Assembly (NCBI RefSeq): GCF_014764505.1
Contig: NZ_JACXWX010000008.1
Location: 62,001-126,000, forward strand
From: Phormidium tenue FACHB-886
GTDB taxonomy: Bacteria; Cyanobacteriota; Cyanobacteriia; Elainellales; Elainellaceae
Direction of reading: 5' to 3'
Length of the DNA stretch: 64,000 nt
Shown here: piece by piece, positions 5,011 through 57,332 of the stretch
Position numbering within the stretch: the stretch's first letter is position 1
Layout of the letters: the number at the start of each line of letters is the position of its first letter
Program-made: the position numbers and the translations under genes
The notes under the pieces: model-generated
The model's database searches: none
The model's input: the letters and a program-made list of their open reading frames with translations, nothing else
Told to the model about the DNA's origin: nothing

Positions 5011-6087
5011 CTATCCTAAAGCCTGAATCAGCGCTTCTCCCATCTCCCGACAGCCTACTGGCTTCATGCCCACCGACATAATATCGCCCGTCCGGTAGCC
5101 TGCATCCAAAACGCTCATCACTGCTTTTTCCAGGCGATCGCTTGCTTCTGGCTGATCCAGCCCGTAGCGCAGCATCATAGCAGCGCTAAGCACTTGGGCG
5201 ATTGGGTTTGCTTTGTCCTGTCCGGCAATATCTGGCGCAGAGCCATGAACGGGTTCAAACACACCCGGACCCGTCGCGCCGAGGCTAGCCGAGGGCAACA
5301 TTCCAATGCTGCCCGTTAGCATGGCAGCTGCATCCGAGAGAATATCACCAAATAAATTACCGGTGACAATTGTGTCAAATTGCTTAGGCGCCCGGATCAG
5401 CTGCATGGCAGCATTATCAACATAGAGATGCGATAGCTCCACGCTGGGATAGCTGGACGAAAGCTGCGTGATCCGATCGCGCCAGAGCTGCGAGACATCC
5501 AGCACGTTCGCCTTATCTACCGAACACAGTTTACCGCCTCGCTTCTGGGCAGTTTCAAAGGCAACTTTGCCGATGCGATCGATCTCGCTCTCGGAGTATG
5601 CCATTGTGTTCACGCCCCGCTTCTCGCCCGTTTCAGTCTCAAAAATGCCTTTGGGCTGCCCAAAATAAATGCCGCCCGTCAACTCCCGCACCACCATGAT
5701 ATCGACCCCTTCAACGACTTCCCGCTTTAGGGTAGAAGCATCGATCAGCTGAGGCAAGATTTTAGCGGGACGCAGGTTGGCAAATAGCCCTAGTCCGGCG
5801 CGCAGCCCTAGCAGCCCGGTTTCCGGTCGCTGGTGGCGGGGCAGGTTATCCCATTTGTAGCCGCCGATCGCCGCTAGCAGCACGGCATCGCTGGCTTTGC
5901 AGGTACTTAGGGTTTCGTCAGGGAGGGGGTTGCCGGTCGCATCGATCGCCGCGCCCCCCATTAGGGCTTCTGTAAACTCAAACTGAAGATTGAGCTGCTC
6001 TCCAACTCGTTTTAGCACGGCAACCGCCACGTCCATAATTTCGGGACCGATGCCATCTCCGGGCAGGAGGGTGATGCGATATGCCAT
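5011..6087 (-). CDS. leuB: 3-isopropylmalate dehydrogenase
   Basis: The 358-residue product is full length for LeuB. It opens with [16 protein letters not shown]. It contains the substrate-binding [17 protein letters not shown] segment, the catalytic [11 protein letters not shown] tyrosine region, [13 protein letters not shown] with the catalytic lysine, and the NAD-binding [14 protein letters not shown] motif. It oxidises and decarboxylates 3-isopropylmalate to 2-oxoisocaproate in leucine biosynthesis, as a cytoplasmic Mg-dependent dimer. No other leu genes are nearby, the usual scattered arrangement in cyanobacteria. It stands 80 bases downstream of the 101-residue gene on the same strand. 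Confidence 0.96.
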
Positions 6088-6167
6088 AAGTTGTTGCGGA
6101 ATGAGTCAGCGATTCAGTATCTTATCTCAAATCCTCCCACGACAGTGATGAACGAGACAAACAACTT

Positions 6168-6473
6168 TCATCGATCGTGCGTCAGAAACTCCACGCGTGG
6201 TACGAGCGGATCTTGCACCAGCCCAATGCCCTCAAAGCCCCACCGCTTCAGCAGATTGCCCAGCTGGGTTCCAGGAATTGACTCCACCGCGAAGCGATCG
6301 GCAACCCCAGCCGCATGCTTGTTTAAATAGCTGAGCGCATCTGCATGTTCTTTAAACATGAGCAGAAAGCCCGGCTCCGGCGGGGCATCGGGGGATGAAT
6401 TTCCTCTGGGACGCGCTACCAAATATTGCCCATCTGTTCTCGAGCGCACTAAATAGAAAATTTCTGAAAGCAT
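6168..6473 (-). CDS. Conserved hypothetical protein, 101 aa
   Basis: A 101-residue soluble protein opening MLSEIFYLVRSRTDGQYLVARP, which reads as two beta strands, followed by an alanine-rich helix (HADALSYLNKHAAGVADRFAVES). It has no cysteines, signal or membrane segment. I recognise it only as a cyanobacterial-type hypothetical protein. It is upstream of leuB in the same direction and may share a transcript. ATG at 6473 has no clear ribosome site, so the exact start is less certain than the frame. Confidence 0.7.
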   Translation of the reverse strand: MLSEIFYLVRSRTDGQYLVARPRGNSSPDAPPEPGFLLMFKEHADALSYLNKHAAGVADRFAVESIPGTQLGNLLKRWGFEGIGLVQDPLVPRVEFLTHDR

Positions 6474-47860: not shown

Positions 47861-47921
47861 CTACTGAAAAAGCCTTGACAGAAACCGTCAAAGCCCTTGC
47901 TGGAACTATGCTTTATGACAA

Positions 47922-47992
47922 GCCCGTGATGAGGATTGAACTCATGACCTCACCCTTACCAAGGGTGTGCTCTACCACTGAGCTACACGGGC
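47922..47992 (-). tRNA. trnT: tRNA-Thr (GGT)
   Basis: Read on the minus strand the 71 bases fold as a cloverleaf. The acceptor stem GCCCGTG pairs with CACGGGC, the anticodon stem CACCC/GGGTG encloses TTGGTAA with anticodon GGT, and the T arm contains GAGTTCAATCCTC. It reads ACC and ACU threonine codons. No CCA is encoded. It follows tRNA-Tyr on the same strand, an arrangement common in cyanobacteria. Confidence 0.93.
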
Positions 47993-48088
47993 GAAGTTAG
48001 GGTTGAGCCGCAAGCGCTGAACTACTGAAGTTATTTGAGATTTAACCTCAGTGCTCAGCACTCGCTGATCAACCTTTTTGTGTGGAAT

Positions 48089-48169
48089 GGGCCGGGCTGG
48101 ATTTGAACCAGCGTAGGCGTAGCCAGCGGATTTACAGTCCGCCCCCATTAACCACTCGGGCACCGACCC
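48089..48169 (-). tRNA. trnY: tRNA-Tyr (GTA)
   Basis: The minus strand holds a class II tRNA of 81 bases with a long variable arm (TGGCTACGCCTACG type). The acceptor stem GGGTCGG pairs with CCGGCCC with one G-T, and the anticodon loop ACTGTAAAT gives GTA. The T arm has GGTTCAAATCC. It is the upstream tRNA of the Tyr-Thr pair, 96 bases from tRNA-Thr. Confidence 0.93.
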
Positions 48170-48237
48170 ACCTGTTCCACGACTATTGATAGTAGCACAC
48201 TGTAGAAGCAATCTGAAAAAAATTTGAGAATTTTTCC

Positions 48238-52315: not shown

Positions 52316-52452
52316 GGCGACCGCACTTTGGACAACCGCTTTATTGTGACAGATGCGGGATAAGAAGAGAGGAAGGGTAGGAGTGATAGAGAATAGAAGA
52401 TGGGCGAGCAAGACGCTTGTACCCACAGGTAGCCCTGATTTCTTATCGCTCT

Positions 52453-53031
52453 ATGTCTCTCCCGTCTCTAGCAAATTGGCTTGCAGGTGAATTTGATAAC
52501 CAACCCCAAGCGATCGCTGATCCGCTGTGGTTTGTGCATCTGCGGCTGTGGCATCGTCCGGTGAAGCTGCAGCTGGAGGGACATTTGGCGCTGTTTGCCG
52601 AGCAGGCAAATGCCTTGCAGCTCGATCGCCCCTATCGTCAGCGGATTGCAGTGCTTCAGCCCACTGCAGATCCTCAGATTCAGCGGGTGCAGTATTGGGG
52701 GTTTAAGCAACCTGATCTCTTTCGCGGGGCAGGAGCCAATCCACAGCAATTAGAACGGCTGAGTCTGGAAGATTTGGAGCTGCTGCCTGGGTGTGTGCTG
52801 ACGGTGACGCAGCAGGGCGATCGCTTTAAGGCAGAGCCGCCCAGTGGGGCGAAGTGCTGCTTCCAGTATGAAGCGCAAACGCGGCAGGTGGTGTTGGGCT
52901 TTGAGGTAAGTGAGACGCAGTTTTGGAGCTTCGATCGCGGGGTTGATCCCAACACCGGAGCTGCGTTGTGGGGCGCAGTGATGGGGGCGTATACGTATAA
53001 TAAGCGGCAATCATTTAGCTGGAAGGACTAG
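52453..53031 (+). CDS. cpcT: CpcT/CpeT family chromophore lyase
   Basis: ATG 52453 (MSLPSLANWLAGEFDNQ) gives 192 residues, the normal family size. Typical motifs are ADPLWFVHLRLWHRPV, PYRQRIAVLQ, DLELLPGCVLTV and the tail DRGVDPNTGAALWGAVMGAYTYNKR. CpcT attaches phycocyanobilin to Cys153 of phycocyanin beta, and CpeT does the same for phycoerythrin; which substrate this one uses cannot be decided. It is divergent from the CrtISO-like gene. An earlier in-frame ATG at 52417 is less likely. Confidence 0.92.
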   Translation: MSLPSLANWLAGEFDNQPQAIADPLWFVHLRLWHRPVKLQLEGHLALFAEQANALQLDRPYRQRIAVLQPTADPQIQRVQYWGFKQPDLFRGAGANPQQLERLSLEDLELLPGCVLTVTQQGDRFKAEPPSGAKCCFQYEAQTRQVVLGFEVSETQFWSFDRGVDPNTGAALWGAVMGAYTYNKRQSFSWKD

Positions 53032-53126: not shown

Positions 53127-55217
53127 ATGTCATCAAACCTGGCAGAGCGTTTGAATGTAGAGCGCCGTCGTCAGTTTGTCGGACGTACCGCCGAACTGAA
53201 TCTGTTCCGGTCAACGCTTATGGACACAGAGAGGCGGTTTTGTTTGCTCCACATCTTTGGATCTGGTGGAATTGGTAAAACAACGCTGTTAAGAGAGCTG
53301 ATTTATCTGTGTGAACAGCTGCAGATTACCGCAACCTATCTCGATGCTCGCAGCATTGAACCCACGCCAGAATCATTCCTGGCTGCATTTACCCATGCCT
53401 TAGGCTCAGAAAGCGGAAATCCTATCCAAATTTTGGAGTCTCAGTTAGATCGTCAGGTTGTTTTGATTGACACCTACGAAACATTAGCACCGTTAGACCC
53501 GTGGCTCCACGAAACCTTTCTGCCACAGCTTTCAGCGAATACGCTGATTGTTCTGGCAAGCCGTCAGCCTCCGGCTTCTAGCTGGCGTGCTGACCCAGGT
53601 TGGCAAGCCCTGATTCACCCGCTGCCGCTTCGCAATCTAAATTTAGAAGAAGGTCGAGCCTACCTGAGCAAGCGAGATATTCCCGCAGCGCAGCATCAGG
53701 CTGTTTTAGATTTTACCTACGGGCACCCGCTGGCATTGTCTCTGGTAGCAGATGTTTTTGCCCAAAAACAAAACTTTTACTTTCAGCCGGATGCGGCGCC
53801 AGATATCGTTAAAACCCTACTCGAAAAGTTTGTTCAGGAATTACCCAGTCCTGCCCATCGGATGGCTCTAGAAGCCTCAGCGTTAGTACGCCTTACCACC
53901 GAAGCGTTGCTTGCCAAAATGCTGGAGATGGATGATGTTTATCCTTTATTTGAGTGGTTGCGCAGTTTATCCTTCATTGAATCAGGGATATTGGGAATTT
54001 TTCCGCACGATCTGATTCGCGAAGTCTTAATTGCTGATATCCGCTGGCGGAATCCTGACAGGTATATCGAATTACACTCTCGCGCTCGCAGCTACTACAC
54101 AACTCGGCTGGGACAAACTCAAGGGCAGGAACAGCATCGTATTTTGTTTGATTACATCTTCTTGCACCGGGATAATGCGGCCGTGCGACCGCGATTTACC
54201 TGGCAAGAAACGAGCAGCCTAAAGACAGACAGTTTGCGAGAAGCCGATCGCCCCTTTCTAATCAGCATGGTGAGGAAGCATGAGGGAGCCGCGTCAGCGC
54301 AGCTGGCAGAATATTGGCTAGCCCGACAGCCTCAAGGCGTGCTGGTTTTCCGAGAGGCGGTGCAGCCGGTCGGCTTTGTTTTGATGGTAACCCTCCATCA
54401 AGCTAGCCCCGAAGAGTTGCAAGTCGATCCAGGTGCAGCGGCAGCTTGGGCTTATTTAAGCAATCATGCGCCTTTACGGGCTGGGGAAGGGGCAACGTTC
54501 TTTCGCTTTTGGATGGCAGATGACACATATCAGGCAGTTTCGCCAATTCAGAGCCGAATTTTTATTGCTTTTGTGCAGCATCACCGCAACACACCAGGGT
54601 TGGCGTATACCTTCTTTGCTTGTGCAGAACCAGAGAGCTGGGCGGCCATGTTTGCCTACGCAGATTTAGCCCGAATTGCCGAGGCTGACTTTGCGGTGGG
54701 CGATCGTCTCTATGGGGTTTATGGGCACGATTGGCGAGTTACGCCGCCCGAAGTCTGGCAAGAGCTACTGGCTCAGCGAGAGATTGCTGCCTCAGCGCAG
54801 GCAGCTTTGCCACCGCAATCCCCTGAACCACTGGTGGTTCTCAGTTATTCTGACTTTGTGAGCGCTGTGCGGGAGGCATTGGGGCAGCTTGCCCAACCCG
54901 ATCGCCTTAAACAAAGTCCGCTGTTGCGATCGCGGCTGGTGGTCGATCGGGTTTCAGCCAAAGCAGACAAAACTGAGCGTGTTGCTGCACTACAGGTACT
55001 TCTGCAGGCAGTGATTGAGTCTTTACAATCTTCTCCACGAGATGCCAAATGCTATCGAGCGCTTTATCACAGCTATCTCCAGCCTGCACTCACTCAAGAG
55101 AAGGCATCGGAGCTATTGGATGTGCCTTTAAGCACTTTTCGCCGTCATCTCAAGACAGGCGTTAGCCGAGTCATAGATATTTTATGGCATCAAGAAATCG
55201 GTCGATCGGAAAAGTGA
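53127..55217 (+). CDS. P-loop STAND-like ATPase with C-terminal HTH, regulator candidate
   Basis: The 696-residue protein starts at ATG 53127 after AGAGGAAG. Residues 15-320 form a STAND/NB-ARC-like NTPase: Walker A FGSGGIGKTTLL with Lys51, Walker B VVLIDTYET with Asp115, VLASRQPP sensor and a GHPLAL motif near 200. A middle region of about 250 residues (340-590) could be a GNAT-like fold but is not secure. The last 60 residues (TQEKASELLDVPLSTFRRHLKTGVSR) resemble a helix-turn-helix of sigma region 4 type. Such a layout suggests a signal-responsive transcription regulator. Two ferritin-like genes follow on the same strand. Confidence 0.72.
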   Translation: MSSNLAERLNVERRRQFVGRTAELNLFRSTLMDTERRFCLLHIFGSGGIGKTTLLRELIYLCEQLQITATYLDARSIEPTPESFLAAFTHALGSESGNPIQILESQLDRQVVLIDTYETLAPLDPWLHETFLPQLSANTLIVLASRQPPASSWRADPGWQALIHPLPLRNLNLEEGRAYLSKRDIPAAQHQAVLDFTYGHPLALSLVADVFAQKQNFYFQPDAAPDIVKTLLEKFVQELPSPAHRMALEASALVRLTTEALLAKMLEMDDVYPLFEWLRSLSFIESGILGIFPHDLIREVLIADIRWRNPDRYIELHSRARSYYTTRLGQTQGQEQHRILFDYIFLHRDNAAVRPRFTWQETSSLKTDSLREADRPFLISMVRKHEGAASAQLAEYWLARQPQGVLVFREAVQPVGFVLMVTLHQASPEELQVDPGAAAAWAYLSNHAPLRAGEGATFFRFWMADDTYQAVSPIQSRIFIAFVQHHRNTPGLAYTFFACAEPESWAAMFAYADLARIAEADFAVGDRLYGVYGHDWRVTPPEVWQELLAQREIAASAQAALPPQSPEPLVVLSYSDFVSAVREALGQLAQPDRLKQSPLLRSRLVVDRVSAKADKTERVAALQVLLQAVIESLQSSPRDAKCYRALYHSYLQPALTQEKASELLDVPLSTFRRHLKTGVSRVIDILWHQEIGRSEK

Positions 55218-55601
55218 GCGTAAAATGAGCGCTTTTTGAGCTTGAAAATACCTAAGAAGTGAAACATCCTTTAGAAGAGTTTTTGAGGCTTTTCGTCCTT
55301 AAAAACGCACGACTAGCTTAGGTAGAGATACGCTATTTCACTCTTCTAGGAATTCAGGCTAGATCAGGAATTTCTAAAGGACGAATCTTACGAGGTTGCG
55401 TTTCGCAATTTCTTCAAAACATTTCCCTGCATTCTTCTGGATTCGTCCGTTCATCCAGTTAAACGCTGGAAGTTCAATCGCTAGAGTTCAAAACCCAAGC
55501 AGCCTGGCTAGGAATTGCTTCTATCTGGGGCATTTGCCGTCGCTTTGCTATGGGTTGATGTTCATGTCGCGAACTTGATACCTCTATTCAGGAACAGCTT
55601 T
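55218..55601. other. Intergenic region upstream of ferritin-like genes
   Basis: The 384-base stretch carries an inverted repeat GGACGAATC (55379-55387) and GATTCGTCC (55440-55448). It could be an operator or mRNA structure. No terminator follows the ATPase gene clearly. No gene is seen. Confidence 0.45.
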
Positions 55602-56342
55602 ATGACTTTGCAAAATGAGCCGTCCAGACAAGTCACCTCCAGACGCAAACTTCTGAAATGGGGTTTGTGCGGCTTGGGTGCGGTTGCTTTAACGACGGTC
55701 CCACAATCGCTGCTTGCCCAAAGCACCGGCAATGGACGCACTCCCACCTTGACGTTTAATGCAGACGACGTTGGAATCCTCAACTTTGCGCTGCTGCTAG
55801 AAGAGCTGGAATCAGCTTTCTATAAGGCAGCAGCTGATTCTGGTAAAGTGACCGATCGAGCTGAGCGCGAATATTTGAGGGTTTTGGGCACCCATGAAGC
55901 AACCCACGTCACCTTTCTTCGGGAAGTACTGGGAGACAATGCCACCTTCCAAACTTCAGATATTCGATTTAACCGGGCTGGACTGGCTGCCCTATTGACA
56001 GACCGCACGACAATTTTGAGAGCTGCAGTCGCGCTAGAGGACACGGGCGTTCATGCATACAACGGTGCGGGTCCTAGCCTGACTAATCCCACCTTTATCC
56101 TGGCGGCAGGTTCGATCGTTTCGGTAGAAGCTCGTCACGCTGCCGGGGTGCGTTCCTTGTTGAGACAATCGGTGACTGAGCCTGATCGAGGACGCGCCGT
56201 TCCCAATACTCGCTTAAACACTGGGCTCAACCCCTTTAAAGGACGAGCTTACGATGAGCTATATACGCCCAAACAGATTGTCCAGATCGTCAATTCACTC
56301 AAAATCATCAATAACCGCATTACGGGTGCGCTTGTTGCCTGA
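55602..56342 (+). CDS. Ferritin-like domain protein with Tat-type signal
   Basis: ATG 55602 gives 246 residues. The N-terminus has a twin-arginine signal, SRRKLLKWGLCGLGAVAL, followed by a cleavage-like SLLAQS. The ferritin-like domain (about 50-200) has acidic and His residues typical of the Ferritin_2 family: LEELESAFYKAA, LGTHEATHVTFLREVLG, ALEDTGVHAYNGA and VSVEARHAAGVRSLL. The four-helix bundle could bind a di-iron or other metal centre. Tat export means it may fold and load its cofactor before leaving the cytoplasm. Plant desiccation protein pcC13-62 belongs to the same family; the bacterial role is unknown. It is followed after 15 bases by a paralogue. Confidence 0.83.
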   Translation: MTLQNEPSRQVTSRRKLLKWGLCGLGAVALTTVPQSLLAQSTGNGRTPTLTFNADDVGILNFALLLEELESAFYKAAADSGKVTDRAEREYLRVLGTHEATHVTFLREVLGDNATFQTSDIRFNRAGLAALLTDRTTILRAAVALEDTGVHAYNGAGPSLTNPTFILAAGSIVSVEARHAAGVRSLLRQSVTEPDRGRAVPNTRLNTGLNPFKGRAYDELYTPKQIVQIVNSLKIINNRITGALVA

Positions 56343-56357
56343 GCTAAGGAGAGCCAC

Positions 56358-57332
56358 ATGACCATTTTTGCAAATCTTATCGTTAACCAGGCAACCCACC
56401 CTATGCAACTTCACTCAAAATGCTTCAGCACGCTGACTAGCAGCCTAAACCGAATAGCGCTCCAAACCCGATCGCTGCTCAGCAGTGCAGTAGTTCTGCT
56501 GCTCTTTCTGGGTCTATCTTTATCCTGTTTGTTCATCATCCCGGCTGCGCCTGCTCAGGCTCAAAGCGCTACCCTGACACCTCAGCAGGTGGTTGAATAT
56601 GCGCTGACTCTAGAGAAGCTAGAAGATGACTTTTATCGTCGGGCAGCCCAGGCAACCCAAAGCGGCGGCTTGAAAAACGCACCACAGCCTGCAAAGGATG
56701 CGATCGCCGCCTACGGCAGAGATGAAGCGCAGCATGTCGTCGATCTCTCAGCAGTTCTTAGATCGATCGGGGGCAACCCAGACGCAATTACCATTCCTGC
56801 TAACCCTAATTACTCTGCCATCCTGGGTCGTAATCCTTTTGCCAATATCAGAGACTTTCTCCTGGCGCTGCAATATGTTGAAGATCTGGGCGTTGCAGCC
56901 TACAAGGGGCAAGTGCAAAATCTGCTAGCAGCAGGAGCCGATACGATCCTAGCAGGAGCATTGGAAATTCACTCGATCGAAGCTCGTCATGCCGCAGGCG
57001 TCCGCTATTTGAGACAGGTATTGCTAAATGCCGATATTCGACCCTGGATTCGTCGGGGCAACGAAGTGATCTATGCAGAAAATCGGACAGGGACACCGAT
57101 TGAGTTTAGCAATCAAGCCTTTGACGGCTTTGCCACCCGTGATGAAGTGCTAGCGCTCGTTGGACCGGTGCTTAATCTATCTACAACGGGTACAACACGA
57201 TCGGGTACAGGTGGTACAGGCTCTAGCAGTGCGCCGTCTCCCTCTGCCCTGGAAGGCAGCATCACTCAAGACGATTGCCCGGCTGGAACAACCCTGGAAC
57301 TGCTGTCGGGAGGCTATATCTGCCGACCCTAG
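56358..57332 (+). CDS. Ferritin-like domain protein with Sec-type signal
   Basis: ATG 56358 follows AAGGAG at good spacing, 15 bases after the preceding gene. The 324-residue product has a long N-region and a hydrophobic signal (SSAVVLLLFLGLSLSCLFIIPAA) ending near PAQAQS at about residue 70, Sec-like and without twin arginines. The Ferritin_2 domain has LEKLEDDFYRRAA, GRDEAQHVVDLSAVL, LQYVEDLGVAAYKG and HSIEARHAAGVRYLR. A Ser/Gly/Thr-rich linker leads to a C-terminal CPAGTTLELLSGGYIC segment with two cysteines, possibly a disulfide. Export by a route different from its sister suggests a distinct cofactor or partner. Confidence 0.83.
   Translation: MTIFANLIVNQATHPMQLHSKCFSTLTSSLNRIALQTRSLLSSAVVLLLFLGLSLSCLFIIPAAPAQAQSATLTPQQVVEYALTLEKLEDDFYRRAAQATQSGGLKNAPQPAKDAIAAYGRDEAQHVVDLSAVLRSIGGNPDAITIPANPNYSAILGRNPFANIRDFLLALQYVEDLGVAAYKGQVQNLLAAGADTILAGALEIHSIEARHAAGVRYLRQVLLNADIRPWIRRGNEVIYAENRTGTPIEFSNQAFDGFATRDEVLALVGPVLNLSTTGTTRSGTGGTGSSSAPSPSALEGSITQDDCPAGTTLELLSGGYICRP

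Follow-up and report, generated by a model that had tools for sequence, protein, structure and literature searches.

The E. coli activator MalT has a C-terminal helix-turn-helix (HTH) domain and a TPR-like inducer domain. According to PMC10936776, MalT is activated in an ATP-dependent manner, and SARP activators such as AfsR, a large STAND-family SARP of Streptomyces, use direct repeats spaced by 11 bp near the -10 element. Here we analyze a locus in a stretch of 64,000 nucleotides (the window) from Phormidium tenue FACHB-886 (assembly GCF_014764505.1, contig NZ_JACXWX010000008.1, positions 62,001 to 126,000), in which the gene of a STAND ATPase, below called the regulator, is followed by two genes of ferritin-like proteins, fer1 and fer2 (Table 1). 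We consider it quite likely that the regulator is a MalT/AfsR-like activator switching on fer1-fer2 via a triple-repeat operator.

The locus combines features of several described systems. As in AfsR, a STAND-family protein goes with 11-bp direct repeats close to a -10 element, here as a sequence pattern; AfsR carries a winged-helix SARP domain at the N-terminus and TPR at the C-terminus, whereas the regulator appears to have a C-terminal HTH resembling sigma region 4 and a GNAT-fold middle domain. With MalT it shares the STAND core and the position of the HTH, but the inducer domain of MalT is TPR-like and no GNAT domain is present there. The modelled fold of the middle domain is that of the N-acyl amino acid synthase FeeM and of Naa50; unlike these, it has no GNAT P-loop motif and is part of a regulator. 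Finally, extracytoplasmic function (ECF) sigma factors with RskA- or ChrR-type anti-sigma factors adjoin the same ferritin pair or a DUF4331 cassette elsewhere; their regulatory mechanism differs, the region 4-like HTH alone being comparable. No description of this architecture was found in open-licence PMC text, nor under DUF4331, Ferritin_2 or ferritin-like proteins.

Triple-repeat element and its association with the regulator

In the candidate operator, 34 bp long, TGAGC(A) occurs three times with a period of exactly 11 bp, and the TGA of the first copy is the stop codon of the regulator. Comparison of regulator gene ends shows TGAGC-N6-TGAGC on or just after the stop codon, and at convergent loci the same pattern is located upstream of DUF4331 (here and below, G and L numbers denote genomes and loci). 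The element was discovered at regulator-adjacent loci by a scan for this pattern, and a 13-seed matrix, built before scanning elsewhere, yielded nothing above 12.4 bits on 2.35 Mb of shuffled sequence. The element also precedes targets when the regulator is far away or on another contig: fer1 and DUF4331 in G046, DUF4331 in G013, G033, G047, G072 and G083, and fer1 in the draft genome G285, where the regulator is on another contig. With the seed genomes excluded, it was found at DUF4331 loci in 7/8 regulator-bearing genomes and in 0/27 genomes without the regulator (p = 1.2e-6). A matrix of 27 sites, partly circular, gave 8/9 vs 0/27 for DUF4331 and 5/8 vs 1/15 for fer1. These scans took the best site anywhere in the fetched locus, upstream or not, and positions were read from the 13-seed scan.

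The same association is observed at the level of whole genomes. A sequence-only model of 27 sites, run over the 291 genomes of our cyanobacterial class sample at E<=1e-3, finds the element in 23 of them, comprising 21/23 regulator-bearing genomes and 2/268 others (Fisher 1.2e-27). Among held-out genomes, from which no site had entered the model (G072, a relative of a training genome, being excluded), the proportions are 8/10 and 1/267 (5e-13). The regulator-bearing genomes missed at this threshold are G115 (E 0.0027) and G171 (E 0.002). In Chloroflexota, also at E<=1e-3, the element is present in 5/9 regulator-bearing genomes and in 0/31 controls, the latter drawn in handle order from the 234 genomes that lack a regulator match. 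The number of copies per genome varies from one to seven. The genome of P. tenue has a single site (E 6.4e-6; the next match has E 0.3) and, by genome search, a single regulator copy. As judged by comparison, the regulator-site pairing is well supported, and in this genome the regulator is probably dedicated to the ferritin operon.

An earlier sequence-only reading of the window had noted a 9-bp inverted repeat in the 384-base spacer between the ATPase gene and the ferritin genes, which it took for regulator and targets. The spacer length is exact, provided that ATG 55602 is the fer1 start, and the repeat is present (12-nt arms at 92%); its half-site TTCGTCC/GGACGAA was found in 0/10 spacers of other loci tested, and we rejected it as operator. 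The regulator-target link itself is supported by the conserved element, also in trans, the inverted repeat not being its basis. Both this element and the GNAT fold described below had been overlooked.

Promoter geometry and proposed mechanism

The site logo was built from 46 distinct sites, remaining of 49 after removal of near-identical downstream sequences. The core consists of TGAGCA at positions 5-10 and 16-21 and TTGGTCTGG at 26-34; a fourth repeat, TGAnCA at 39-44, is weak. Moreover, a -10-like hexamer xAxxYT, whose position was not used in the element model, occurs at a fixed offset, namely at 56-61 in 20/46 sites and one base earlier (55) in 13/46, compared with a mean of about 1.7 of 46 at other offsets (offset 55 is included in these, both for the mean and for its p-value). 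The distance between the element and the hexamer is 20-21 bp. An ordinary sigma-70 promoter was not found in the regulator-fer1 spacer.

The geometry extends to Rhodococcus. In Rhodococcus sp. WAY2 and R. opacus the element, degenerate in the latter, spans the regulator stop codon, with CATTCT and CACCCT, respectively, at position 56. Both were recognised by eye, scoring low in the matrix (7.1 bits in WAY2, under 0 in R. opacus). After the Kitasatospora and Streptomyces relatives of the regulator no such site stands out.

The following scheme would account for these observations. At rest, the STAND core would be an inactive monomer. A small ligand bound in the GNAT-fold domain, which lacks the P-loop, would act jointly with ATP to cause oligomerisation. 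Three or perhaps four of the sigma-region-4-like HTH heads would then contact the TGAGC(A) repeats, which are spaced by 11 bp and lie between about -63 and -34; the three repeats suggest at least three protomers. The bound heads may stand in for the missing -35 element, so that the fer1-fer2 operon would be switched on from the -10 hexamer, which lies 20-21 bp further downstream. Two diiron ferritin-like proteins would result, one exported via Tat and the other via Sec, and they would probably shield the envelope from metal or oxidative stress.

Domain structure of the regulator

The 696-residue open reading frame with Walker A Lys51 and Walker B Asp115, recognised as STAND-like in the sequence-only reading, is confirmed, K51 being invariant and D115 conserved to 90% or more across 20 relatives. 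The predicted nucleotide-binding and oligomerisation region covers approximately residues 9-340 and includes, besides the Walker motifs, GHPLAL (199-204) and PHD (293-295), which are conserved in the alignment of relatives and which we take to be the STAND GxP and MHD-like motifs. Pfam matches of the N-terminus to AAA_16/NACHT are just below or under the curated cut-offs. A search of solved structures by sequence found no full-length relative. The full-length model has a mean pLDDT of 79.1, and its N-terminal half resembles STAND structures (NRC2, Z 12.5; MalT 8bob, Z 12.3 over 325 residues; Apaf-1, Z 11.2).

In this model the region of residues 340-590, a part left undefined by the earlier reading, has a degenerate GNAT fold. 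In particular, residues 360-540 match FeeM (Z 13.3, rmsd 3.2 over 176) and Naa50 (Z 11.7). The GNAT acyl-CoA P-loop motif, Q/RxxGxG/A after strand 4, is missing at that place, between strand 4 and helix 3, in 38/38 regulator relatives; the pattern is present away from the usual place in 13 of the 38 rows. Since residues 326-565 are wholly missing in the relatives from G115 and G211, the GNAT part is a module. In G211 the box is still nearby, which would follow from DNA recognition by the HTH. Homologues without the GNAT module at L063 and L064 adjoin C39-peptidase/HlyD-like export clusters, perhaps bacteriocin-like.

The C-terminal HTH, noted before, is backed by the model of the isolated domain (pLDDT 94.4). 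Its best structure matches are almost only sigma region 4, with Z up to 7.8, which is suggestive of a region 4 fold without proving it.

Ferritin genes

Both fer1 and fer2 lie on the regulator strand, separated by 15 bp, and belong to Ferritin_2 (PF13668), with scores of 115.7 and 86.6 bits, far above the cut-off, in agreement with their earlier assignment. Their predicted export, also proposed previously, is consistent with a twin-arginine signal in fer1, the pattern being present in 23/24 relatives, and a Sec-like signal peptide in fer2, read by eye. The predicted diiron ligands E99xxH102, E146 and E176xxH179 of fer1 are present in 25/25 rows (E70 in 24/25), and those of fer2 (E86/E89, E123xxH126, E175, E208xxH211) in 24/24. 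Both look like intact diiron carboxylate proteins with the same E, ExxH, E, ExxH order as other Ferritin_2 proteins; no difference from the family was found, and they are ordinary members. A metal or redox role of the module is plausible.

Distribution of the regulator and gene neighbourhoods

In the class sample, 33 genomes have a regulator match at E<=1e-10, 23 of them orthologue-like at E<=1e-60; a second draw from the class gave 9/386 genomes at E<=1e-60. In Chloroflexota, 17/251 genomes have a match at E<=1e-30, nine being full length. Rhodococcus, Kitasatospora and Streptomyces plasmids carry relatives with 29-41% identity over nearly the whole length, and a Nostoc plasmid carries one with 54.5% identity. 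The closest named relative of the region is Microcoleus sp. FACHB-1515, with identical gene order and identities of 75% (regulator), 74% (fer1) and 75% (fer2).

The ferritin pair follows the regulator in the window and at L033, L046, L052 and L061 (where the regulator is broken). The three genes, read earlier as a module, are neighbours in four other sample genomes, this being one of several arrangements. The regulator and fer1 are both present in ten class-sample genomes and adjacent in five (G000, G053, G127, G171, G263), which span three sample families; G127 has a second, also adjacent copy. In 20/20 fetched fer1 loci fer1 and fer2 occur together. At L055 a different Ferritin_2 gene follows the regulator, and at L058 and L047 genes of the same cluster are located farther away. 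A DUF4331-TPR-NicO cassette follows the regulator at L036, L041, L048 and L049 and is convergent to it at L034, L065, L118, L119 and L120; in Rhodococcus the next gene encodes a FAD monooxygenase. In the tree of 40 regulator relatives (8 distant or partial rows were removed) the neighbour labels are scattered; the neighbour clustering excluded duplicates L044, L045 and L050.

A family of exported proteins of about 240 aa supplies the first gene before ferritin pairs and DUF4331 cassettes alike (L046, L048, L049, L052); the L048 member has a weak PEP-CTERM match.

Alternative explanations

Several observations weigh against activation of fer1-fer2 by the regulator. G279 and G251 have a box, and no regulator was found in them even at E<=1e-5 (G279 is 72% complete and contributed a site to the model). 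In the held-out regulator-bearing Chloroflexota, only 1/5 genomes reaches E<=1e-3. At fer1 loci the 13-seed matrix, with seed genomes excluded, gave a weak result (2/4 regulator-bearing vs 1/15, p = 0.097), and three regulator-bearing genomes (G040, G048, G115) have no box at the fer1 locus. The matches of the HTH to sigma region 4 stay below Z 8, those in Pfam and hhalign are weak, and its profile comparison with neighbouring ECF sigma factors gave a probability of 9.9. Moreover, the association of the element with the regulator could stem from another co-inherited factor.

The last point corresponds to the likeliest alternative, in which a different activator, travelling with the STAND gene, binds the element, the STAND protein itself controlling something else. 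Co-occurrence does not tell which protein binds, and the boxes in G279 and G251 fit this explanation as well; we nevertheless regard it as improbable, since no other gene constantly accompanies the STAND gene, and the regulator HTH and the box are kept together from cyanobacteria to Rhodococcus while other neighbours change. The element overlaps a gene end and would be transcribed upon read-through, as an RNA signal or a mobile repeat might be, but the low copy number, the fixed spacing to the -10-like hexamer, the occurrence far from the STAND gene, and the lack of an Rfam match or hairpin terminator in our searches make this very improbable. STAND NTPases are common in defence; still, an anti-phage or conflict-system NTPase unrelated to ferritins is hardly credible here, the best PADLOC match being weak (E 0.0076), a phage search for the regulator giving no match, and the orthologues being stable and accompanied by the promoter element, and we rejected a defence role. 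Chance proximity, which might be suggested by the 36/41 genomes with a fer1 homologue where no STAND gene was found beside it, is just as hard to credit given adjacency in half of the genomes with both genes and the box before fer1 in trans in G046 and G285.

If the regulator indeed activates fer1-fer2, an uncharacterised "ATP-binding protein" family, ranging from cyanobacteria to Chloroflexota and Rhodococcus, would gain a function open to testing, along with a DNA site and targets, the GNAT-fold domain would represent a novel kind of sensor among STAND activators, and the regulator-site pair would be a handle on the signals behind exported Ferritin_2 and DUF4331 proteins. A bolder and rather unlikely extension is an undescribed regulator class, where the catalytically dead GNAT/N-acyl-synthase-like domain senses acyl-CoA, acyl-ACP or an N-acyl signal and drives the STAND oligomer onto the triple-repeat promoter, and which replaced ECF sigma/anti-sigma pairs in several lineages for the same ferritin and DUF4331 modules. 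The profile probability of 9.9 led us to reject kinship of the HTH to the neighbouring ECF sigma factors by this method, and therefore the idea of ECF replacement comes from shared targets only.

Other targets and neighbouring genes

Targets of the element appear to vary, comprising the ferritin pair, the DUF4331 cassette, Dps and the FAD monooxygenase. Further sites precede RTX and subtilase-RTX proteins (G088), an MFS transporter (G789), and a HlyD/C39-like exporter (G048, G211), named from sequence rather than by family call; many downstream genes encode exported or envelope proteins. In G020, where the seven sites (L260-L266) include those preceding a Dps-type ferritin and the gene of a CHRD protein, the regulon is larger than that of P. 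tenue. No target is obvious for several sites in G020 and G047.

Among genomes without the regulator next door, an ECF sigma factor with a RskA- or ChrR-cupin-type anti-sigma factor is located beside the target in 2/20 fer1 and 4/20 DUF4331 loci, which we chose from 44 fer1 places and 69 DUF4331 genomes; families were verified for three sigma/anti-sigma pairs. This suggests that such pairs may be an alternative control of the same modules. ECF sigma genes next to DUF4331 cassettes and ferritin pairs (L202, L203, L216, L218, L184, L197, L274), most of them accompanied by an anti-sigma gene, of RskA_C or ChrR-cupin type in the cases checked, hint at an oxidative or singlet-oxygen regulon. At L216 a Ferritin_2/DUF4439 gene (5448-6197, minus strand) directly upstream of DUF4331 joins both target modules.

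Table 1. Features of the regulator-ferritin locus (window positions)
Feature	Position	Strand	Basis and remarks
STAND ATPase regulator gene	53127..55217	+	696 aa; open reading frame list, Pfam, alignment, structure model
GNAT-fold middle domain, proposed sensor	54204..54746	+	Residues 360-540, without P-loop motif; structure model, structure matches, motif check
C-terminal HTH, sigma region 4-like	55044..55199	+	Residues 640-691; model of isolated domain
Proposed operator	55211..55244	+	TGAGC at 55215, 55226, 55237 (11-bp period); motif scans
Candidate -10 hexamer CATCCT	55265..55270	+	20 bp after operator; site alignment
9-bp inverted repeat (55379-55387 with 55440-55448)	55379..55448	+	Present, not conserved
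fer1, predicted Tat-exported Ferritin_2 protein	55602..56342	+	246 aa; open reading frame, Pfam, alignment; alternative TTG start 55515
fer2, Ferritin_2 protein, putative Sec-like signal peptide	56358..57332	+	324 aa; open reading frame, Pfam; signal peptide read by eye

A CpeT/CpcT-family gene (PF06206, phycobiliprotein lyase family; 52429-53028) with the same orientation as the regulator ends about 100 bp before it. Farther upstream, genes of tRNA-Thr(ggt) and tRNA-Tyr(gta) are located side by side on the minus strand (47921-48170).

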